In this document: positions 22,257-31,490 of the stretch, piece by piece
How positions within the stretch are numbered: position 1 is the stretch's first letter
How the letters are laid out: every line of letters starts with the position of its first letter
NCBI GenBank assembly: GCA_902797265.1
Contig: CADBSF010000088.1
Location: forward strand, 1-38,100
Length of the DNA stretch: 38,100 bases
Reading direction: 5' to 3'
Source of the DNA: an uncultured Erysipelotrichaceae bacterium
GTDB lineage: Bacteria; Bacillota_I; Bacilli_A; RF39; UBA660
Program-made: the position numbers and the translations under genes
The notes under the pieces: model-generated
Told to the model about the DNA's origin: nothing
The model's database searches: none
Seen by the model: the letters and a program-made list of their open reading frames with translations, nothing else

Positions 22257-25200
22257 ATGTTAACATACGAAGAATTATCAACGATTATTCCCAAAGAAAC
22301 CAAAGATTTTTTAGATATTTATTTACCATTAGAATATCATTATATTAGAAATTGTAATGTAGTACCAATTAAGAAAAGTACTATTACTCATCCAGAAAGT
22401 AAAAGATTCTTTCTAATGTTATATTCTTATTGTTTAAAAAAAGAGAATGCTTTATTATTCTCTCAATTTGGATTTCAAACAAAATCAATACCAGTAGAAG
22501 AAGATATAAAAGGCGATTTGGAAATGATTTATATGCAAAATCCAACTATTATTCCTTCTTTTAAAAATAAAGAAGACTATTCTCTATTAACTCCTATTGA
22601 TATCATTTTAAAAGCCTATAAAGAGTATGAATCAAAGGAAACAACTAGCATCTTATTTACATTTCTTTTACCAAGATTAGAATCAGAATCAAAATTTTTG
22701 ACTTTCTTAAAAAAGCAAAATGTAGAGGAAAAAGAAAGAATAGAATTATTATTAGAAAAAGAATTATTTAATAACTTTCCTATTTCTGTAATATCTTATT
22801 TAGAGACTGCTTCTAAGATCAGAAAATATATAAAAGAAGAAAAGAAAGAAGACAAAGAGTTAACAAAAGATAATAATCTAATTCCTTTATCTTTGTTCTT
22901 TGCAATTTATTTTTATCAAGATCCCATTACAGATACAAATGGAATTACAATGCAAAAAGTAATTATTTATTATTTAGAGAAAAAAGGGATTACTCTAAAT
23001 CAAATATCTTCTCAACTAGATCTATACTTGTATAAGGATGATATTGATAAAATAGAAAATAGTCTAATAGGAATAAAAGAATATTATCAAAAATATTATG
23101 ATAATCATTCTAGAGTAGAAGTAGTTGATATTGTTAATAATTTATGGAATAGAAAAGTAACAGAAAGTATTTATTTAGAAAGATTATTTGCTCAAGAAAA
23201 CTGTTATTTTGAAATGTTTCAAAATTTTTTAGAAGATATCCAAAAAGAATATGAATTTATAAAAAGAAAATCATATGAGAAGAAATTATCTAGTTTTTAT
23301 AGTAATATGAATTTAGATACGAAGGAATTTATTGAAACAACTTCTAAAATATATCTTTTATTATTAGATAAAATGAAAGAAGAACAACACAAGAAAGAAG
23401 TCTTAGAAAAAGAAGATGATGCGGATACTCTAGCTTTATTAATCGCTAGTTTTTATTATCAAACAGAAGTTAGTAAGTATTATGAAGATAATTCGATTAC
23501 GTTAGAGAAAATATTGGATTATTTAAAGATAACTATTACCAAAGAAGAAATTAAAAAAGTGGAATTGAATCCTATTGTTCTAATGAATCGTTTTAATCGT
23601 TTCATTAGAGAAGGAGTCAATAGTAGAAAGAAAATAGAGTCCATTACCGTCAATGATATTTCTTATAATCTATGTAATAGAGATTTTAATAAAAGTCTAA
23701 TCATGGAAAAATTATTTCATGAATTAAGTGATGGAAAAGCTCTATCAAATAATTTCTTATTGGATTTAAAGGGTCACTTACAACAAAAAGAAAGAGATAG
23801 AATCAATCAATTAAAACAATCTTTTTTTGGTAATATGCCCATAGAAACAATTCATTATTTAGAAGATGTTTCTATAATTTTTAAATCTCTTCAAAAAGAA
23901 GGATGCTTGGAATTAACAAAAAAGGAAAAGAAACAATTATCTTTATTAGTTGGTTTTTTTGGAGATGATCAATTAACAGAATTTATGGATTATTTACAGA
24001 TTGATTTAGAAGAGATAGAATCTTACTTTGATATTGATTTATCTAATATAGAAGGAGAATATGATATCGATTTCTTAGTAAAAGAATTTACTCCTTTTTT
24101 AGGAGAAGAAGAAAAGAAAAAAGAACTAACTCCTTATCAAATATTAATTAATGCTTTTTCTAAAGAAAATAATCGTTCCTATCATTTATCATCTTTATTG
24201 GATCATTTAGAATTACCAAGTAATTTATTGGAAACAATAGATAGTAAAGTAGAAGATTATAAGGACTATCAGGAACAACAAGAAGAAAAGAAATACTTAC
24301 AAGTATATCACATAAATACGATCCATTCTTTAGAAAAAATGCTTCATCTATATGAATTTATAAAAAATAAGAATACGAATTGGAGTCAAGAAGAAATCTG
24401 TGAATTATCGTTATTAATTATCTCTTATGATTCTTCTTTAATAAAACAGTTTTTAGAAAAACATCAAATATCTTTCAATCGAATATTAAAACTCTATGAC
24501 CTTGAAAAAATAAAAGAGATTAATTATTTAAATGATCCTAATTATCATTTGATAGAACCATTTAAGAAATACTTAGAAAAGGATTCGAATAGTAAAAAAT
24601 CGATTAGAGATATAAAAGATATTTGTAAAGTTCTTTTTGATGAAGAAATATCTCATAATAAAATACTAAAAAGTCTTTTGGAAGAAGAAGAGTATGAGAA
24701 ATTAAAAAGAGAGATATTAACTGAAAAAGATTATGAATCTTCTTTAACGATAAAGGAAAGAATATCTTTATTACAGACAAAAGAAATCCCTTCTATTGAT
24801 AGAAATAATATAGAAAGTATTCTTGAATTTGGAAAAGAACTAGTTCCTCATTCCCAATATATCTATGATGAATTACCTCGATTAGTAGAAGAAGATCAAG
24901 AAAAAAACACTTTACAATCTATTGAAGAAATTGTAAATAGTCTTTATCAAAAAGAAGATAGTAAGAAAACTAAAGGAATCTTTATGAAATTCTTTTCTAG
25001 TAGAGAAGAAGAACCAGAAATAAGAATGAATCAAGATAAAATAGAAGAATTAAGAATTACAATTGAAGAAAATATTACTGTTTTATCAAGAGAATTATTA
25101 GGATATGATGCTATTAGAAAATATATGGAAGAGTATCGAAAAAAGAATTTATCTTATTTAGAAATAGCAACAAAAGAAGTAGAATTATTAGAAGAGAATT

Positions 25201-25715
25201 TACAAGTATTAAATCCAGAAAATGAAGAAGAATACTTTCTTTATTTGAAATATGCTTCTTTATTACAGATTATGAAAGATAAGAAAAATCGTTTTCAAAC
25301 AACAAATCGTATCACTAGTCAAGAATTAGTAAGAATCAGTCAAGCAATTGTGAATCATTTTATTACGATAAATGCTTTAGAAATGGCAAAAAATGATTTA
25401 TTCCCTCTAATTGCTTCAGAACTTGCGATTGCGAAAGGAAGAAATACGGAAAAAGAAGCTTTAGAATTATCTCAAGGAGTAATAAATCTATTTCAAGCTT
25501 TATTAACAAGAAATGTGGAAGAAGCAAGCAATCATTTAGAATTATTAAATCATAGTAATCTTTCTGTCAATTTATTATCATCTCTACAAACAGATATCAT
25601 ATCTTTTACTAAAAATATTGCTGAATTAAAAGAATTAGATAGAAAAGCATCTAATTTTAAGGTAGATGATTTTATGGAAGAACAAGGAAAATCTCTTCAA
25701 AAAAGAAAGAAATAG
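22257..25715 (+). CDS. Large repeat protein with Clp-N-like modules and a TelA-like C-terminus
   Basis: A 1152-residue, all-helical, acidic protein with no signal peptide or membrane segment. It holds at least four diverged modules of about 165-177 residues. Matching pieces: NNFPISVISYLETASKI (172), SNMNLDTKEFIETTSKI (349), GNMPIETIHYLEDVSII (525); then ITLNQISSQLDL, ITLEKILDYLKI, IDLEEIESYFDI, ISFNRILKLYDL; then VDIVNNLWNR..YLERLF, NDISYNLCNR..IMEKLF, YQILINAFSKENNR..LLDHL. The last two pieces resemble the helical repeat of Clp-N domains (A..IL..A...H...HLL..LL). Residues about 925-1120 resemble TelA/KlaA (toxic anion resistance): ITIEENITVLSRELLGYDAI, SQELVRISQAIVNHF, PLIASELAIAKGRN, ALELSQGVINLFQALL. 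Function unknown; both domain calls are by eye. Confidence 0.7.
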   Translation: MLTYEELSTIIPKETKDFLDIYLPLEYHYIRNCNVVPIKKSTITHPESKRFFLMLYSYCLKKENALLFSQFGFQTKSIPVEEDIKGDLEMIYMQNPTIIPSFKNKEDYSLLTPIDIILKAYKEYESKETTSILFTFLLPRLESESKFLTFLKKQNVEEKERIELLLEKELFNNFPISVISYLETASKIRKYIKEEKKEDKELTKDNNLIPLSLFFAIYFYQDPITDTNGITMQKVIIYYLEKKGITLNQISSQLDLYLYKDDIDKIENSLIGIKEYYQKYYDNHSRVEVVDIVNNLWNRKVTESIYLERLFAQENCYFEMFQNFLEDIQKEYEFIKRKSYEKKLSSFYSNMNLDTKEFIETTSKIYLLLLDKMKEEQHKKEVLEKEDDADTLALLIASFYYQTEVSKYYEDNSITLEKILDYLKITITKEEIKKVELNPIVLMNRFNRFIREGVNSRKKIESITVNDISYNLCNRDFNKSLIMEKLFHELSDGKALSNNFLLDLKGHLQQKERDRINQLKQSFFGNMPIETIHYLEDVSIIFKSLQKEGCLELTKKEKKQLSLLVGFFGDDQLTEFMDYLQIDLEEIESYFDIDLSNIEGEYDIDFLVKEFTPFLGEEEKKKELTPYQILINAFSKENNRSYHLSSLLDHLELPSNLLETIDSKVEDYKDYQEQQEEKKYLQVYHINTIHSLEKMLHLYEFIKNKNTNWSQEEICELSLLIISYDSSLIKQFLEKHQISFNRILKLYDLEKIKEINYLNDPNYHLIEPFKKYLEKDSNSKKSIRDIKDICKVLFDEEISHNKILKSLLEEEEYEKLKREILTEKDYESSLTIKERISLLQTKEIPSIDRNNIESILEFGKELVPHSQYIYDELPRLVEEDQEKNTLQSIEEIVNSLYQKEDSKKTKGIFMKFFSSREEEPEIRMNQDKIEELRITIEENITVLSRELLGYDAIRKYMEEYRKKNLSYLEIATKEVELLEENLQVLNPENEEEYFLYLKYASLLQIMKDKKNRFQTTNRITSQELVRISQAIVNHFITINALEMAKNDLFPLIASELAIAKGRNTEKEALELSQGVINLFQALLTRNVEEASNHLELLNHSNLSVNLLSSLQTDIISFTKNIAELKELDRKASNFKVDDFMEEQGKSLQKRKK

Positions 25716-25720
25716 TATAA

Positions 25721-25749
25721 TTGTTTTTGAAAGAAAAAAATGGTATAAT
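25721..25749 (+). promoter_or_regulatory. Promoter of the vanY-truB gene
   Basis: TTGTTT (25721-25726), 17-nt spacer, TATAAT (25744-25749) preceded by TGG (extended -10). Confidence 0.7.
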
Positions 25750-25781
25750 TCACATAATAAAAAAGAAAATAGAGGTATAAG

Positions 25782-27179
25782 ATGAGAAATACAGTTTTAA
25801 TTAATAAAGAGAATAAGTGGCAAGAAAAATTTGCTTCTAATAGAAAACTAATCATAGTAGAAGATATTAATAAGAATAATATTTTAATAGAAGAGAATAC
25901 ATATCAAGCCTATTTTCAATTTAAGGAATTTTTAAAAGAAAAAGGAATTATCATTGGAATTACTTCAGCTTTTCGCTCTGTAGAAGATCAAGAGAAGTTA
26001 CGGAATGAACTATTAGAAGAAAGAGGAGAAGAATACGTAAAACATTATGTTGCGAATAAAGAGGAATCAGAACATACAACAGGTTTAGCAATCGATTTAG
26101 CTGTTTTCATTAATGAAAAGTATGAAGATGAAACAGAAGAAGCTTATACTTTATTAGAACAAACTCATGAATATTTAAAAGATTTTGGTTTTATTTTGAG
26201 ATATCCAAAAGAAAAAGAAAAAATAACGGGATATTCTTATGAACCATGGCATATTCGATATGTAGGAAAGATTCCTGCCAAAATAATAGGAGATAATCAT
26301 TTAACACTTGAAGAATACTTAAAATCATATAGTGGAGTCTTATACATTCATAAAGAAAAAGATATGACATCCTATGATGTTGTAGAAAGAATCAAAAAAA
26401 TCTATGGAATCAAAAGAGTAGGACATACTGGAACACTAGATCCAATTGCGGAAGGGGTATTAATCGTATGTATCGGAGAAGCTACGAAAATCGTAGAATT
26501 ATTAACAGCAGAAGATAAAGAATATGTAGCTGGAGTAAAGTTAGGAATATTAACAGACACTCTTGATAGTACAGGAAAGGTAATAGGAGAAAAAGAATTA
26601 CCTAATTACTTAGAGTTAGAAAAAATGATTTCATCTTTTCAAAAAACATACTTACAAGAAGTACCAATCTATTCAGCAATCAAAGTAAATGGAAAAAAAT
26701 TATATGAGTATGCAAGAGAAAATAAAAGTATCGAATTACCAAAAAAAGAGGTTACGATAAAAGAAATAGAATTATTAGAAGAAAATAAGAATACTTTTCT
26801 TTTTAAAACTCTTGTAACGAAGGGATGCTATATTAGAAGCCTCATTCGAGATATAGGAGAAGAGTTAAATACCTATGCAACGATGACTTCTCTTATTAGA
26901 ACGAAACAAGGAAAAGTATCCTTAGAAGAGACCAATACTTTAGAAGAAATAGAAAAAGGAGAAGCGATTATTCATACGATAGAAGAAGTATTGGATTATC
27001 CAATAATCACAGTAGATGAGGAAGAAGAAGAGAAAATTAAGAATGGTCTAGTTCTTGTTAATGAATGGAATATTTCTAATAAAGTATTATTTAAAAATAA
27101 GAAGAATCGATTATTAGGAATCTATCAAAAAGAAGAAAATCTTTTAAAAACTTGGAAAAATTTTAGAAATGACTTGTAA
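25782..27179 (+). CDS. truB: Fusion of VanY-type D,D-carboxypeptidase and tRNA pseudouridine-55 synthase TruB
   Basis: A single 465-residue frame. Residues about 1-165 are a VanY/DdcY zinc peptidase: TSAFRSVEDQ (61-70), SEHTTGLAIDLA (zinc ligands His98, Asp105) and EPWHIRYVG (Glu154, His157). Residues about 184-465 are TruB: SGVLYIHKEKDMTSYDVV, GHTGTLDPIAEGVL (catalytic Asp220), YSAIKVNGKKLYEYAR, CYIRSLIRDIGEEL. There is no signal peptide, so the peptidase half would be cytoplasmic, unlike normal VanY. No stop or frameshift separates the halves and I see no in-frame ATG, GTG or TTG at the usual TruB start; Met195 falls inside its first motif. truB is usually a separate gene after rbfA; here it precedes rimP. 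Both active sites look intact. Confidence 0.9.
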   Translation: MRNTVLINKENKWQEKFASNRKLIIVEDINKNNILIEENTYQAYFQFKEFLKEKGIIIGITSAFRSVEDQEKLRNELLEERGEEYVKHYVANKEESEHTTGLAIDLAVFINEKYEDETEEAYTLLEQTHEYLKDFGFILRYPKEKEKITGYSYEPWHIRYVGKIPAKIIGDNHLTLEEYLKSYSGVLYIHKEKDMTSYDVVERIKKIYGIKRVGHTGTLDPIAEGVLIVCIGEATKIVELLTAEDKEYVAGVKLGILTDTLDSTGKVIGEKELPNYLELEKMISSFQKTYLQEVPIYSAIKVNGKKLYEYARENKSIELPKKEVTIKEIELLEENKNTFLFKTLVTKGCYIRSLIRDIGEELNTYATMTSLIRTKQGKVSLEETNTLEEIEKGEAIIHTIEEVLDYPIITVDEEEEEKIKNGLVLVNEWNISNKVLFKNKKNRLLGIYQKEENLLKTWKNFRNDL

Positions 27180-27201: not shown

Positions 27202-27213
27202 ACATCTAGAAAG

Positions 27214-27236
27214 GAGTGGGAAAAAAAGTCCCACTC
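27214..27236 (+). promoter_or_regulatory. Leader hairpin before rimP
   Basis: Perfect 8-bp GC-rich stem GAGTGGGA / TCCCACTC with loop AAAAAAG, starting about 6 nt after the predicted transcript start and followed by TTATTATTT, then the ribosome site GGGAGGTGA (27246-27254). It may be an attenuator, a 5' stabiliser or an autoregulatory site. The downstream T tract is interrupted, so full termination is doubtful. Confidence 0.6.
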
Positions 27237-27257
27237 TTATTATTTGGGAGGTGAACC

Positions 27258-27509
27258 GTGAAAGAGAAAATAGAAAGTCTAATAAAAGATTCTATAGAAG
27301 ACTTAAACGTATTTCTTGTAGATAGTTTTATCGATGAAGAAGAAGGGAAAAAAAGATTAAATATCGTCTTAGATAGTAATGAAATAATCGATTTAAATAA
27401 AATAACAGAAGCCTCAAGAATAATAAATAAATTATTAGATAAAGAAAAAAACATAATAGAGGATATTGATGAAGTAGATATTTATTCCAAAGAAAAAGGA
27501 GATGTGTAA
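27258..27509 (+). CDS. rimP: Short RimP: N-terminal domain only
   Basis: An 83-residue protein that matches only the N-terminal alpha/beta domain of ribosome maturation factor RimP (IESLIKDSIEDLNVFLVDSF, RLNIVLDSN, EIIDLNKITEASRIINKLLD, DIDEVDIYSKEKGDV). Family members are usually about 150 residues and have a C-terminal SH3-like domain that is absent here; the frame stops and nusA begins. RimP helps assemble 30S subunits. The GTG start at 27258 has an excellent ribosome site. Position directly before nusA supports the identity. It may be a natural short form or a reduced gene. Confidence 0.75.
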   Translation: MKEKIESLIKDSIEDLNVFLVDSFIDEEEGKKRLNIVLDSNEIIDLNKITEASRIINKLLDKEKNIIEDIDEVDIYSKEKGDV

Positions 27510-27510
27510 A

Positions 27511-28725
27511 ATGGAAGGCAAAGAATTTAAAAAAGCATTAGATAATATTGTAAAAGAAAAAGATATTGATCCAGAAATTGTTTATAGTGCAATGGAATTA
27601 GCCCTAACTTCAGCATATAAAAAGAATTTTAATTCAAAAACAAATGTAAAAGTATTATTTGATAGAGAAAGTGGAGATATTAAAGTATATTCTTATTTAA
27701 CAGTAGTACCAGATGATAAAATGACAAAAGAAGAATATGAAGATGCTTTATTTGAACAATATGCATTAGATGATGAACTAGATACAAAAAAGGAAGAAGA
27801 AGTAGTAGAGGAAGAGTCAACTGAGGAAGAAGAGAAAGATAAAGAAGAAAAACCTCAAATTTCATTCTTTAATAAAGAAACAGAAATTAAATTAAGTGAT
27901 GCGAAAAAGATTGATAAGACTCTAGAGATAGGAGATACTATTGATACAGAAGTTACTCCAAAAGATTTTGGAAGAGTAGCTGCTTCTACAGCAAAACAAG
28001 TAGTGATTCAAAAAATAAGAGAAGCAGAAAGAAATAGTATCATGGAAGAATTTGGAGATAAGCAAGATGAATTACTAGTAGGAACAGTAGCTCTAGAAGA
28101 TACGGATAATTATTTTATTGATTTAGGAAGAACAAATGGAATTCTTCCAAAGAAAGATATTATTCCTGGTGAAAAAATAGAAATGGGTTCTCAAATAAAA
28201 GTATATGTATCAAAAGTAGATAATAATGGAAAAAATATGCTTATTCTTTTAAGTAGAAGTCATTATGGATTTGTAAAAAGACTTTTTGAATTAGAAATTC
28301 CAGAAATCAATGATGGAACAGTAATGATTTATTCCGTTGCGAGAGATCCTGGAAATAGAAGTAAAGTAGCTGTTTATTCTGAAAAACCAAATGTTGATCC
28401 AATTGGAGCATGTATTGGCGAAAAAGGTTCTAGAATTGCTAGAATTATCACAGAATTACATGGAGAAAAATTAGATGTTGTAAAATATGATAAAGATCCA
28501 GCAATCTTTATTGAAAATGCACTTTCCCCAGCTAAAGACTTAACAGTAGCAGTAACTGATCCAAAGAAATTAGAAGCATTAGTAATTGCTGATGGAGATA
28601 ACTTCTCTCTAGCAATTGGTAAAAAAGGACAAAATGCTCGTTTAGCAACAAAATTAACAAAATTCAAAAAAATTGATATTAAAACAAGTGAACAAGCAAG
28701 ACAAGCAGGCATAAACTTTAGATAG
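27511..28725 (+). CDS. nusA: Transcription factor NusA
   Basis: A 404-residue protein. The N-terminal RNA polymerase-binding domain (MEGKEFKKALDNIVKEKDID...), S1 domain (GTVALEDTDNYFIDLGRTNG), KH1 (GACIGEKGSRIARIITELHG) and KH2 (LAIGKKGQNARLATKLTKFK) are all present. Residues about 66-112 of the N-terminal domain are an unusual acidic insertion with long runs of Glu, which explains the extra length over the usual about 370. NusA acts in pausing, termination and antitermination. The start at 27511 is preferred because AAGGAG (27496-27501) is 9 nt away; ATG 27502 is too close. Confidence 0.96.
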   Translation: MEGKEFKKALDNIVKEKDIDPEIVYSAMELALTSAYKKNFNSKTNVKVLFDRESGDIKVYSYLTVVPDDKMTKEEYEDALFEQYALDDELDTKKEEEVVEEESTEEEEKDKEEKPQISFFNKETEIKLSDAKKIDKTLEIGDTIDTEVTPKDFGRVAASTAKQVVIQKIREAERNSIMEEFGDKQDELLVGTVALEDTDNYFIDLGRTNGILPKKDIIPGEKIEMGSQIKVYVSKVDNNGKNMLILLSRSHYGFVKRLFELEIPEINDGTVMIYSVARDPGNRSKVAVYSEKPNVDPIGACIGEKGSRIARIITELHGEKLDVVKYDKDPAIFIENALSPAKDLTVAVTDPKKLEALVIADGDNFSLAIGKKGQNARLATKLTKFKKIDIKTSEQARQAGINFR

Positions 28726-28733
28726 AGGTTTTT

Positions 28734-28997
28734 ATGAAAACAAAAAAAATACCTTTAAGAACTTGTGTTATTACGAAAGAATCTTTACCAAAAAAAGAAT
28801 TAATTAGAATTGTTAGAACTCCAGAACAAATTGTAAAAGTGGATGAAACTGGAAAATGTAATGGTAGAGGTGCCTATATTAAAAAAGATTTACTTGTTTT
28901 AGAAAAAGCAAAAAAATCAAAGATATTAGAGAGAAAATTAGAATGTAAAATAGAGGATAGTGTATATGAAGAAATAAGAAAAATAATAGAAATGTGA
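28734..28997 (+). CDS. ylxR: YlxR/DUF448 RNA-binding protein
   Basis: An 87-residue basic protein with the YlxR motif RTCVITKESLPKKELIRIV and the GRGAYIKKD loop. It is the usual small gene between nusA and infB. The YlxQ (L7Ae-like) gene normally following in Bacillus is absent; infB starts right after. Reported roles include RNA binding and nucleoid-associated regulation, not certain for this species. Confidence 0.95.
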   Translation: MKTKKIPLRTCVITKESLPKKELIRIVRTPEQIVKVDETGKCNGRGAYIKKDLLVLEKAKKSKILERKLECKIEDSVYEEIRKIIEM

Positions 28998-29007
28998 GGT
29001 GGTCATG

Positions 29008-31146
29008 ATGATGACACTAGAAGATTATGCAATTGATGTAAATCTTTCCGTAGAAGAAATCAAAAAATTATGTGATAGAGTAGGTATCTCTTATGAAGAT
29101 GAAAATTCATTATTAGATGATATTAGTATTACTCTTTTAGATAATGCTCTTCAAGAAGAAGATACAGAAGAAGAATCTTTAGAAGAAGAGGAAGAAAGAT
29201 TACTAGAAGAAGAAGCAGTGGATAAAGCAGAAGAATTGGCATTTCATACGAAGATAGATTTAGATAATGAACAAAAATTTACAAAAGTAAAACAAAATAA
29301 ACAAGCTAAGAAGACTGATAATAATAAGAAAGATTTCTTAAAAGAAAGAAAGAAAATGTATAAACATCGTGAAAAACTTCAAAGTAATGAAGTAGCTCAA
29401 GATGAAAATATTATTCTTTATAAAGAAGGAATGACAGTGACAGAATTAGCTGGTTTATTAGAAGTTGGTTCTGTAGAATTAGTAAAAAAACTAATGGGCT
29501 TAGGAATTATGGCTTCTGTGAATCAATCTTTAGATTATGATACTGTAGAAGTAGTCGCAGCTGATTATAATAAAGTAGTGAAGAAAGAAGAAACAAGAGA
29601 TATTTCTAACTTTGAAAACTATGAAATCGAAGATAAGACAGAAGATTTAGTACCACGTCCACCTGTTGTTACGATTATGGGACATGTTGATCATGGTAAA
29701 ACAACTTTACTTGATTATATTAGAAATAGTGATGTTGTTAGTGGAGAAGCTGGAGGAATTACCCAAGCAATTGGAGCTTATTCAGTAACTTGTAATGGAA
29801 AAAAGATTACTTTTATCGATACTCCAGGACATGCTGCTTTTACTGAAATGAGAGCTAGAGGAGCTCAAATTACCGATATCGTAATTATTATTGTTGCGGC
29901 TGATGATGGAATTATGCCACAAACAAAAGAAGCAATAGATCATGCTAAAGCAGCAGGAGTTCCTATTATTGTTGCAATAAACAAGATTGATAAACCAGAA
30001 GCTAATATTGAAAGAATAATGACGGGATTAGTAGAAAACGGTTTAACTCCAGAAGAATGGGGTGGAGATATCATCGTTAATCAAATTTCTGCTAAAAAAG
30101 GAATTGGCGTTGATAAATTATTAGAAAATATTTTATTAGTAGCTGAAATGCAAGAATATAAAGCCAATCCATCTCGTTATGCCTCTGGTGCTGTAGTAGA
30201 AGCTCGAAAAGATTCTAAAGTTGGTTCAATCGCAACGTTACTAATTCAAAACGGTACTCTTCGTTTAGGAGATCCTATTGTAATTGGTAATTATGCTGGA
30301 AAAGTTAGAACTTTAAAGAATGATAAAGGACAAAATATAGTTGAAGCATCTCCGTCAACTCCAGTGGAAGTAACAGGAATTTCAGAAGTCGCAACGGCAG
30401 GAGATAAATTTATGGCTTTTGAATCAGAAAAACAAGCCAAAGATATTGCGGCAGCAAGACTTCTACGTTCCAAGAATGAAGATACCAACTTCAGTGGACT
30501 AAGTCTAGAAGATTTATTTGGAAGAATTAAAGAAGGACAAAAAGAAATCAAAGTTGTATTAAAAGCAGATGTCAATGGTTCTTTAGAAGCTGTTAAGAAT
30601 GCTTTAGAAAAAATTGATGTTGAAGGAGTCAAAGTATCCGTAATTCGTGGAGGAGTAGGAGCAATTACAGAAAGTGATGTCGTACTATCTTCTGCTTCTA
30701 ACGCTATTATTATAGGATTCAATGTAAGAGCAAATACAACTACACAAGAGATTGCCAAACAATATGGAATTGAAATTAAGACCTATGATATTATCTATAA
30801 AGTAGTAGAAGACATGGAAAATGCCATGAAAGGATTACTAGATCCAGAATTTGAAGAAAAAGTTCTAGGAACTGCTGAGATTAGACAAATCTTTAAATTC
30901 TCAAAAATTGGATTTATTGCAGGATGTCATGTAACTAGTGGAGTGATTAAAAATAACTCAAAAGCAAGATTAATAAGAGATGATATTGTAATCTATAATG
31001 GAGCAATTAATACTCTTCAACATGAAAAAGATCAAGTAAAAGAAGTAAAGAAAGATATGGATTGTGGACTTACTTTAGAAAACTGGCAAGACTATAAAGA
31101 AAAAGATGTAGTAGAAGTATATGAACTTGTTGAAATAAAGAGGTAA
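29008..31146 (+). CDS. infB: Translation initiation factor IF-2
   Basis: A 712-residue GTPase. The N-terminal part (about 1-200) is acidic and Lys/Glu-rich and includes an IF2_N-type domain (EGMTVTELAGLLEVGSVELV). The G domain begins with VTIMGHVDHGKTTLLDYIR (G1), DTPGHAAFTEMRARGAQ (G3) and NKIDKP (G4), followed by domains II, III and IV. IF-2 places initiator tRNA on the 30S and promotes subunit joining. Three ATGs lie at 29005, 29008 and 29011; GAGGTG at 28996-29001 fits best with 29008. Confidence 0.97.
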   Translation: MMTLEDYAIDVNLSVEEIKKLCDRVGISYEDENSLLDDISITLLDNALQEEDTEEESLEEEEERLLEEEAVDKAEELAFHTKIDLDNEQKFTKVKQNKQAKKTDNNKKDFLKERKKMYKHREKLQSNEVAQDENIILYKEGMTVTELAGLLEVGSVELVKKLMGLGIMASVNQSLDYDTVEVVAADYNKVVKKEETRDISNFENYEIEDKTEDLVPRPPVVTIMGHVDHGKTTLLDYIRNSDVVSGEAGGITQAIGAYSVTCNGKKITFIDTPGHAAFTEMRARGAQITDIVIIIVAADDGIMPQTKEAIDHAKAAGVPIIVAINKIDKPEANIERIMTGLVENGLTPEEWGGDIIVNQISAKKGIGVDKLLENILLVAEMQEYKANPSRYASGAVVEARKDSKVGSIATLLIQNGTLRLGDPIVIGNYAGKVRTLKNDKGQNIVEASPSTPVEVTGISEVATAGDKFMAFESEKQAKDIAAARLLRSKNEDTNFSGLSLEDLFGRIKEGQKEIKVVLKADVNGSLEAVKNALEKIDVEGVKVSVIRGGVGAITESDVVLSSASNAIIIGFNVRANTTTQEIAKQYGIEIKTYDIIYKVVEDMENAMKGLLDPEFEEKVLGTAEIRQIFKFSKIGFIAGCHVTSGVIKNNSKARLIRDDIVIYNGAINTLQHEKDQVKEVKKDMDCGLTLENWQDYKEKDVVEVYELVEIKR

Positions 31147-31148
31147 TT

Positions 31149-31490
31149 ATGTCAAGTATTAAAATAGAACGATTAAATCATACCTATCAACAAGAAATTA
31201 GTATGATTCTAATGAAAGAAATAAAAGATGAAGATATCAAATTTGTTACCATAACAGGAGTAGATACAACCAATGATCTTAGTTTTTCAAAAGTTTATTA
31301 TACGGTGTTAGATGAATCTAAAAAAGAAACAACAGAATTAGCTTTAAAAAAAGCAGCTCCTTTTATTAGAACAAAATTAGCGGAAAGAGTCCAAATAAGA
31401 CATACTCCAGAGTTAAAATTTATTTTTGATACTTCTATTGATTATGGAAATCATATTGAAAAAATAATAGAAGAAATTCATAAAAAGTAA
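31149..31490 (+). CDS. rbfA: Ribosome-binding factor A
   Basis: A 113-residue KH-like protein: IERLNHTYQQEISMILMKEI at the N-terminus, VTITGVDTTNDLSFSKVYYT in the middle and RHTPELKFIFDTSIDYGNHI at the C-terminus are RbfA signatures. It helps 16S 5'-end maturation. It starts 2 nt after infB with AAGAGG overlapping the infB end and closes the operon; the usual truB downstream is replaced by the upstream fusion. Confidence 0.96.
   Translation: MSSIKIERLNHTYQQEISMILMKEIKDEDIKFVTITGVDTTNDLSFSKVYYTVLDESKKETTELALKKAAPFIRTKLAERVQIRHTPELKFIFDTSIDYGNHIEKIIEEIHKK

Follow-up and report, generated by a model that had tools for sequence, protein, structure and literature searches.

A predicted cytosolic VanXY-like peptidase joined in frame to TruB in one family of gut Bacilli

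A single open frame in the 38,100-nt stretch of DNA analysed here (the window) reads as two enzymes, a VanY-type zinc peptidase followed by the tRNA-modifying enzyme TruB. The locus raises the questions of whether this frame represents one genuine protein, where such a protein came from, and whether its two halves have anything to do with each other. The initial annotation had considered the fusion unexpected and had proposed that it could mark a lineage or couple control of the wall to that of translation.

The fusion gene and its predicted product

The frame begins with ATG and contains no internal stop codons (Table 1). Pfam VanY matched residues 35-163 (E = 2.6e-29; 102.1 bits versus a gathering cutoff of 25), TruB_N matched residues 205-351 (1.3e-48), and TruB_C_2 matched residues 352-409. 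In addition, the NCBIfam TruB equivalog TIGR00431 scored 221.8 bits, above its cutoff of 151.45. These profile matches bear out the earlier reading of VanY and TruB in one frame, and the motifs quoted at that time, SEHTTGLAID, EPWHIRY, and GHTGTLDP, are all present. The peptidase half carries the M15B active-site set (zinc ligands H98, D105, and H157; catalytic E154; R65), while the TruB half contains D220, the catalytic Asp of GHTGTLDP, as well as the conserved Tyr and Arg. Sequence comparison with the PDB gave YodJ/LdcB 4ox3 as the best match to the peptidase half (5.8e-26), with VanXYg 4f78 and others also matching, and 1r3e, 1ze2, and 1k8w as matches to the TruB half.

Table 1. Positions of the fusion gene, its parts, and neighbouring features in the window
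Feature	Position	Strand	Basis or comment
Extended -10 promoter-like TGGTATAAT, just 5' of the fusion gene	25741..25749	+	Direct reading; consensus match only
RBS-like AGAGG, ATG 6 nt further on	25771..25775	+	Direct reading
VanY/VanXY-type peptidase-TruB fusion	25782..27179	+	465 aa; conserved in 65 distinct homologues
Peptidase half, residues 1-180	25782..26321	+	Pfam VanY 35-163; Foldseek to VanXYc 4oak
Junction LKSYS, residues 180-184	26319..26333	+	Alignment; ordered in AF2 model
TruB half, residues 185-465	26334..27176	+	Pfam, TIGR00431, and PDB matches; Foldseek
Catalytic D220 of TruB half	26439-26441	+	
Terminator-like hairpin, gap between fusion gene and rimP	27212..27238	+	
rimP (N-terminal domain)-nusA-ylxR-infB-rbfA operon	27258..31490	+	Names of nusA, ylxR, and infB taken from reading of the sequence

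AlphaFold2 (AF2) predicted one ordered protein (pLDDT 93.1, pTM 0.87), with order extending through the junction. When this model was compared with known structures by Foldseek, TruB structures ranked first (1k8w/1ze2, TMt 0.80-0.85), and the top peptidase was VanXYc 4oak (TMt 0.82). Because RBS-like and extended -10-like sequences lie upstream and a terminator-like hairpin precedes rimP, the fusion gene probably forms its own transcription unit. Directly 5' of it, at 22257-25715, is a gene for a 1152-aa protein with no Pfam matches. No Rfam elements were found within the window.

Since the source genomes are metagenome assemblies, we asked whether the frame could be an artefact of assembly or a frameshift near 26320-26350, or whether it could yield two separate proteins. 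Either seems extremely improbable. A search of related genomes gathered 65 distinct full-length fusions, and the same in-frame joint of 5 or 7 residues recurs in all of them across independent assemblies and projects, ruling out an error at this position. Furthermore, no start codon preceded by a Shine-Dalgarno-like sequence was found in the fusion frame ahead of the first TruB strand; the sole in-frame ATG candidate for the TruB half is the conserved Met of GMTS, which lies within TruB itself. Synthesis of two separate products from this frame is thus unlikely, although the fusion protein could conceivably be cleaved by proteolysis.

Among peptidase equivalog models, the best match was VanXY (NF000380), with 130 bits over residues 6-181; as this is far under the cutoff of 250, we liken the fusion to VanXY rather than file it as a member. 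Like the VanXY enzymes of known structure (4oak and 4mur, VanXYc; 4f78, VanXYg), it has the H-D-H zinc set and the catalytic Glu, and it has no signal peptide, as judged for the fusion by reading its sequence. Unlike them, it is joined to TruB, and no van resistance genes were recognised in the neighbourhoods read. The fusion also shares the LAS zinc fold and Glu with LdcB/YodJ/DacB (4ox3, 4ox5), with a score for NF041194 of 85.6 bits, below the cutoff of 275. However, LdcB works extracellularly on peptides of the wall (PMC4087270), with tetrapeptides as its substrates, whereas the fusion has neither an export signal nor an anchor. Its N-terminus, MRNTVLINKENKWQEKFASNRKLIIVEDIN, read by eye, contains no hydrophobic stretch and no anchor, in agreement with the earlier remark that the peptidase is without a signal peptide. 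In contrast, the two further VanY-like ORFs found in this genome (G000, that of the window) encode a lipoprotein (L132) and a protein with a TM anchor (L133), and the fusion is the only cytosolic VanY-like protein found there. As a TruB (TIGR00431; 1k8w, 1ze2), the C-terminal half is full length; what sets the fusion apart is an N-terminal extension of 184 residues ahead of the strand with which standard TruB begins.

Distribution and origin

All 65 fusions came from one family of gut Bacilli MAGs. Among the 39 species of the window's genus, the fusion was full length in 23 and decayed in 3; nine had a stand-alone TruB, and no TruB was obtained for the remaining 4. The window's own genome yielded no TruB other than the fusion. 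Across the family, about 15 of 145 sampled genomes carried it, a sample of the order added further fusions from the same family, and a second public collection contained fusion loci in gut MAGs (goat, deer, sheep, and others). Outside the family, no fusion was found in a class sample (395 genomes; threshold E 1e-85) or a phylum sample (392 genomes; 1e-62), and no record in a plasmid collection had a single region that spanned 80% of the query. The suggestion of a lineage marker has thus held, the fusion being confined to one family in all samples. In one genome (G352; L142, L143), the fusion occurs together with a separate TruB on a short contig, either a second copy or contamination. We found no TruB-VanY or TruB-peptidase fusion in the literature searched. 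The component enzymes are both known, but their conserved two-enzyme architecture is new relative to that literature, and automated annotation is likely to label such genes 'TruB' only, hiding the peptidase.

In a tree of TruB, the 65 fused and 4 decayed rows all fell into one 81-row set (SH-aLRT 90, a branch that is not decisive), with 12 stand-alone rows nested in or beside the fused ones. One of these 12, L061, is a contig-edge truncation whose frame begins NNWTLEEY. On this tree the state 'fused' needed 14 changes, and starred branches forced at least 6 changes; given these counts, a single gain of the fusion followed by several losses would be the simplest reading, albeit unproven. For VanY, a tree with the fused domains in one clade was not rejected (p-AU 0.61), and this clade sits among stand-alone, signal-less (cytosolic) homologues of the same family.

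The gene neighbourhood was also read. In the basal fusions (L129, L130, L142), the fusion gene is directly 3' of rbfA, and several unfused relatives, including L126, L115, and L116, have the order rbfA-truB in the same slot. The rimP-nusA-ylxR-infB-rbfA operon is the ancestral neighbourhood of truB; in the window's clade the fusion gene now lies upstream of rimP. The RimP encoded there (27258-27509) is 83 aa long and matches RimP_N only, and RimP appears cut down to its N-terminal domain throughout this clade (relatives are mostly 82-100 aa).

We consider it probable that the fusion is a stable, lineage-specific, bifunctional cytosolic enzyme that arose by a single landing before truB and whose two halves most likely work independently. 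A stand-alone, signal-less VanXY-like M15B gene would have landed once before truB, at the rbfA-truB position, in the ancestor of part of the fusion-bearing family, with the last peptidase helix becoming joined in frame to the first TruB strand.

Conservation and decay of the peptidase half

In the 65 fusions, the zinc ligands H98, D105, and H157 and the TruB catalytic residue D220 are kept without exception; the peptidase residues E154 and R65 are kept in 61 and 62, respectively. The junction from LEEY to the first TruB strand is 5 residues long in 50 fusions and 7 in 15. For the two closest pairs, dN/dS was 0.26 and 0.33 in the peptidase half and 0.15 and 0.17 in the TruB half, values indicating purifying selection on both halves that is weaker on the peptidase. 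Judged by these residues and rates, both halves look functional in most fusions, and the peptidase half is predicted to be catalytically active.

Nevertheless, the peptidase has decayed repeatedly. Its catalytic Glu is lost in four fusions (L099, L012, L060, L017) and Arg in L046; beyond these, most of the peptidase active site is gone in the four decayed rows, so peptidase activity appears to be dispensable in places. Two genus members have nothing left of the peptidase active site (L059 and L062, which are the genes also numbered L123 and L125), yet they retain the last peptidase segment leading into TruB, IYVG.IPAKII..N.LTLEEYL.DF. AF2 predicted L059 to be ordered from residue ~56 and mostly disordered over residues 1-51. 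Together, the retained segment and this prediction suggest that the joint now helps TruB to fold. In several other species, the whole peptidase half has been removed and TruB kept. Intact, active-site-dead, remnant, and lost states occur on one tree as a natural series, which makes it possible to ask why a tRNA enzyme that is otherwise universal should have an unrelated enzyme fixed to it.

The retained segment of L059 and L062, the order predicted for L059, and the four further fusions without the catalytic Glu could also mean that the peptidase half now serves chiefly as an extension of TruB for structure or folding, with catalysis as a leftover. We think this unlikely as a general account. 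A pure scaffold would need neither the zinc ligands nor the Glu, both of which are widely kept, the peptidase dN/dS in the closest pairs is 0.26-0.33, and several species dropped the peptidase half entirely while keeping TruB. The earlier suggestion of a merely structural role consequently fits a minority, namely the catalytic losses and the two genus members that keep only the TruB-touching segment, and does not fit most fusions.

It was also proposed that wall and translation control are coupled. In such a coupling, tRNA binding by TruB and the activity of the peptidase would regulate each other and so link wall-precursor supply to translation. The predicted rigid joint of fixed length would be in keeping with this, as would the fact that most fusions have long kept both active sites. 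However, the peptidase active site or the whole half was lost several times with TruB intact, and the VanXY-like module also joins unrelated partners (L172, L181; L162/L146), both of which argue against an obligatory coupling; no regulatory evidence was found. The proposal is not supported so far, and we regard functional coupling as improbable. A specific allosteric or spatial form of it, for example gating of cytosolic D-Ala release by the state of tRNA or ribosome assembly, is still less probable; if true, such gating would be a direct physical link between wall precursors and tRNA maturation within one protein.

We therefore return to a bifunctional enzyme whose halves are most likely independent. 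Fusion would give co-expression and a rigid joint on which the folding of TruB may depend, and this dependence could account for the three outcomes in later lineages, which retain the entire protein, give up the active site while preserving the joint, or drop the peptidase half. In G425, whose TruB fusion is decayed, a signal-less VanY (L228:4164-4733) lies within the lipoprotein-VanY clade; it is possibly a compensation for the decayed fusion, and the contamination of this MAG is 7%.

Cytosolic relatives and the likely role of the peptidase

The initial annotation had placed VanY enzymes outside the cell or on the membrane face, and the peptidase half of the fusion, without a signal peptide, in the cytoplasm. 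The first statement is too narrow, since VanXY, the nearest named model, cleaves cytosolic substrates: it hydrolyses D-Ala-D-Ala and UDP-MurNAc-pentapeptide (PMC9866002) and is thought to be a branch inside the VanY carboxypeptidases of low-GC Gram-positives (PMC8698665). As for the second, the family has many stand-alone relatives without a signal peptide; we found 20 distinct short (~180-205 aa), unfused, signal-less VanXY-like proteins, a 21st (L225) being a fragment. With cytosolic substrates for VanXY-type enzymes and signal-less unfused relatives at hand, the puzzle of the wrong compartment mostly dissolves. These proteins point to a widespread, uncharacterised cytosolic VanXY-like peptidase, and in the neighbourhoods that were read no antibiotic-resistance genes were seen alongside it.

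The relatives have other partners as well. In L172 and L181, the VanXY-like module is fused in frame behind a C26/GATase-like domain. This domain was named from its sequence and from Pfam matches to the C26 genes of L210 and L213, where the C26 and VanXY-like genes are neighbours but separate. In L162 (L146:6753-7958), the C-terminus of the peptidase is joined to a HAD-like domain, for which Pfam HAD_2 fell just under its cutoff, and in L211 the VanXY-like gene adjoins an M19 dipeptidase gene. The C26-VanY and VanY-HAD proteins thus resemble the TruB fusion in having the same cytosolic peptidase domain fused in frame, but with different partners and in only one or two genomes each. Such unrelated partners, C26 amidase-like and HAD-like, suggest that the VanXY-like module is simply fusion-prone, and the C26, HAD, and M19 associations hint at peptide or muropeptide salvage.

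On the reading that the halves are independent, the N-terminal half probably takes D-alanine off a small cytosolic peptide, for which UDP-MurNAc-pentapeptide, D-Ala-D-Ala, and an imported muropeptide are candidates, and the C-terminal half would make pseudouridine-55 in tRNA. The two halves most likely do so independently. The genomes resemble those of RF39-type uncultured Bacilli, an order for which m-DAP peptidoglycan is predicted along with the absence of some precursor steps (PMC10868615). For the window's genome, we rejected a supply of D-Ala owing to absent Alr or Ddl, as both domains are encoded there. An LdcA-type S66 peptidase is encoded by 34 of the 39 genus members, including the window's genome, so muropeptide trimming would not require the fusion specifically, and replacement of LdcA by the fusion does not hold as a simple story; the genus has separate C26 genes as well. 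Stand-alone cytosolic homologues seemed to be absent where the fusion was intact; this complementarity is suggestive but not significant by Fisher test (family sample, p = 0.13; genus, p = 0.16).

In L219, L220, L221, L224, and L227, the stand-alone vanXY-like gene is directly 3' of a UvrD/PcrA-type helicase gene, and in L214 it is flanked by a polA-like and a mutM-like gene.
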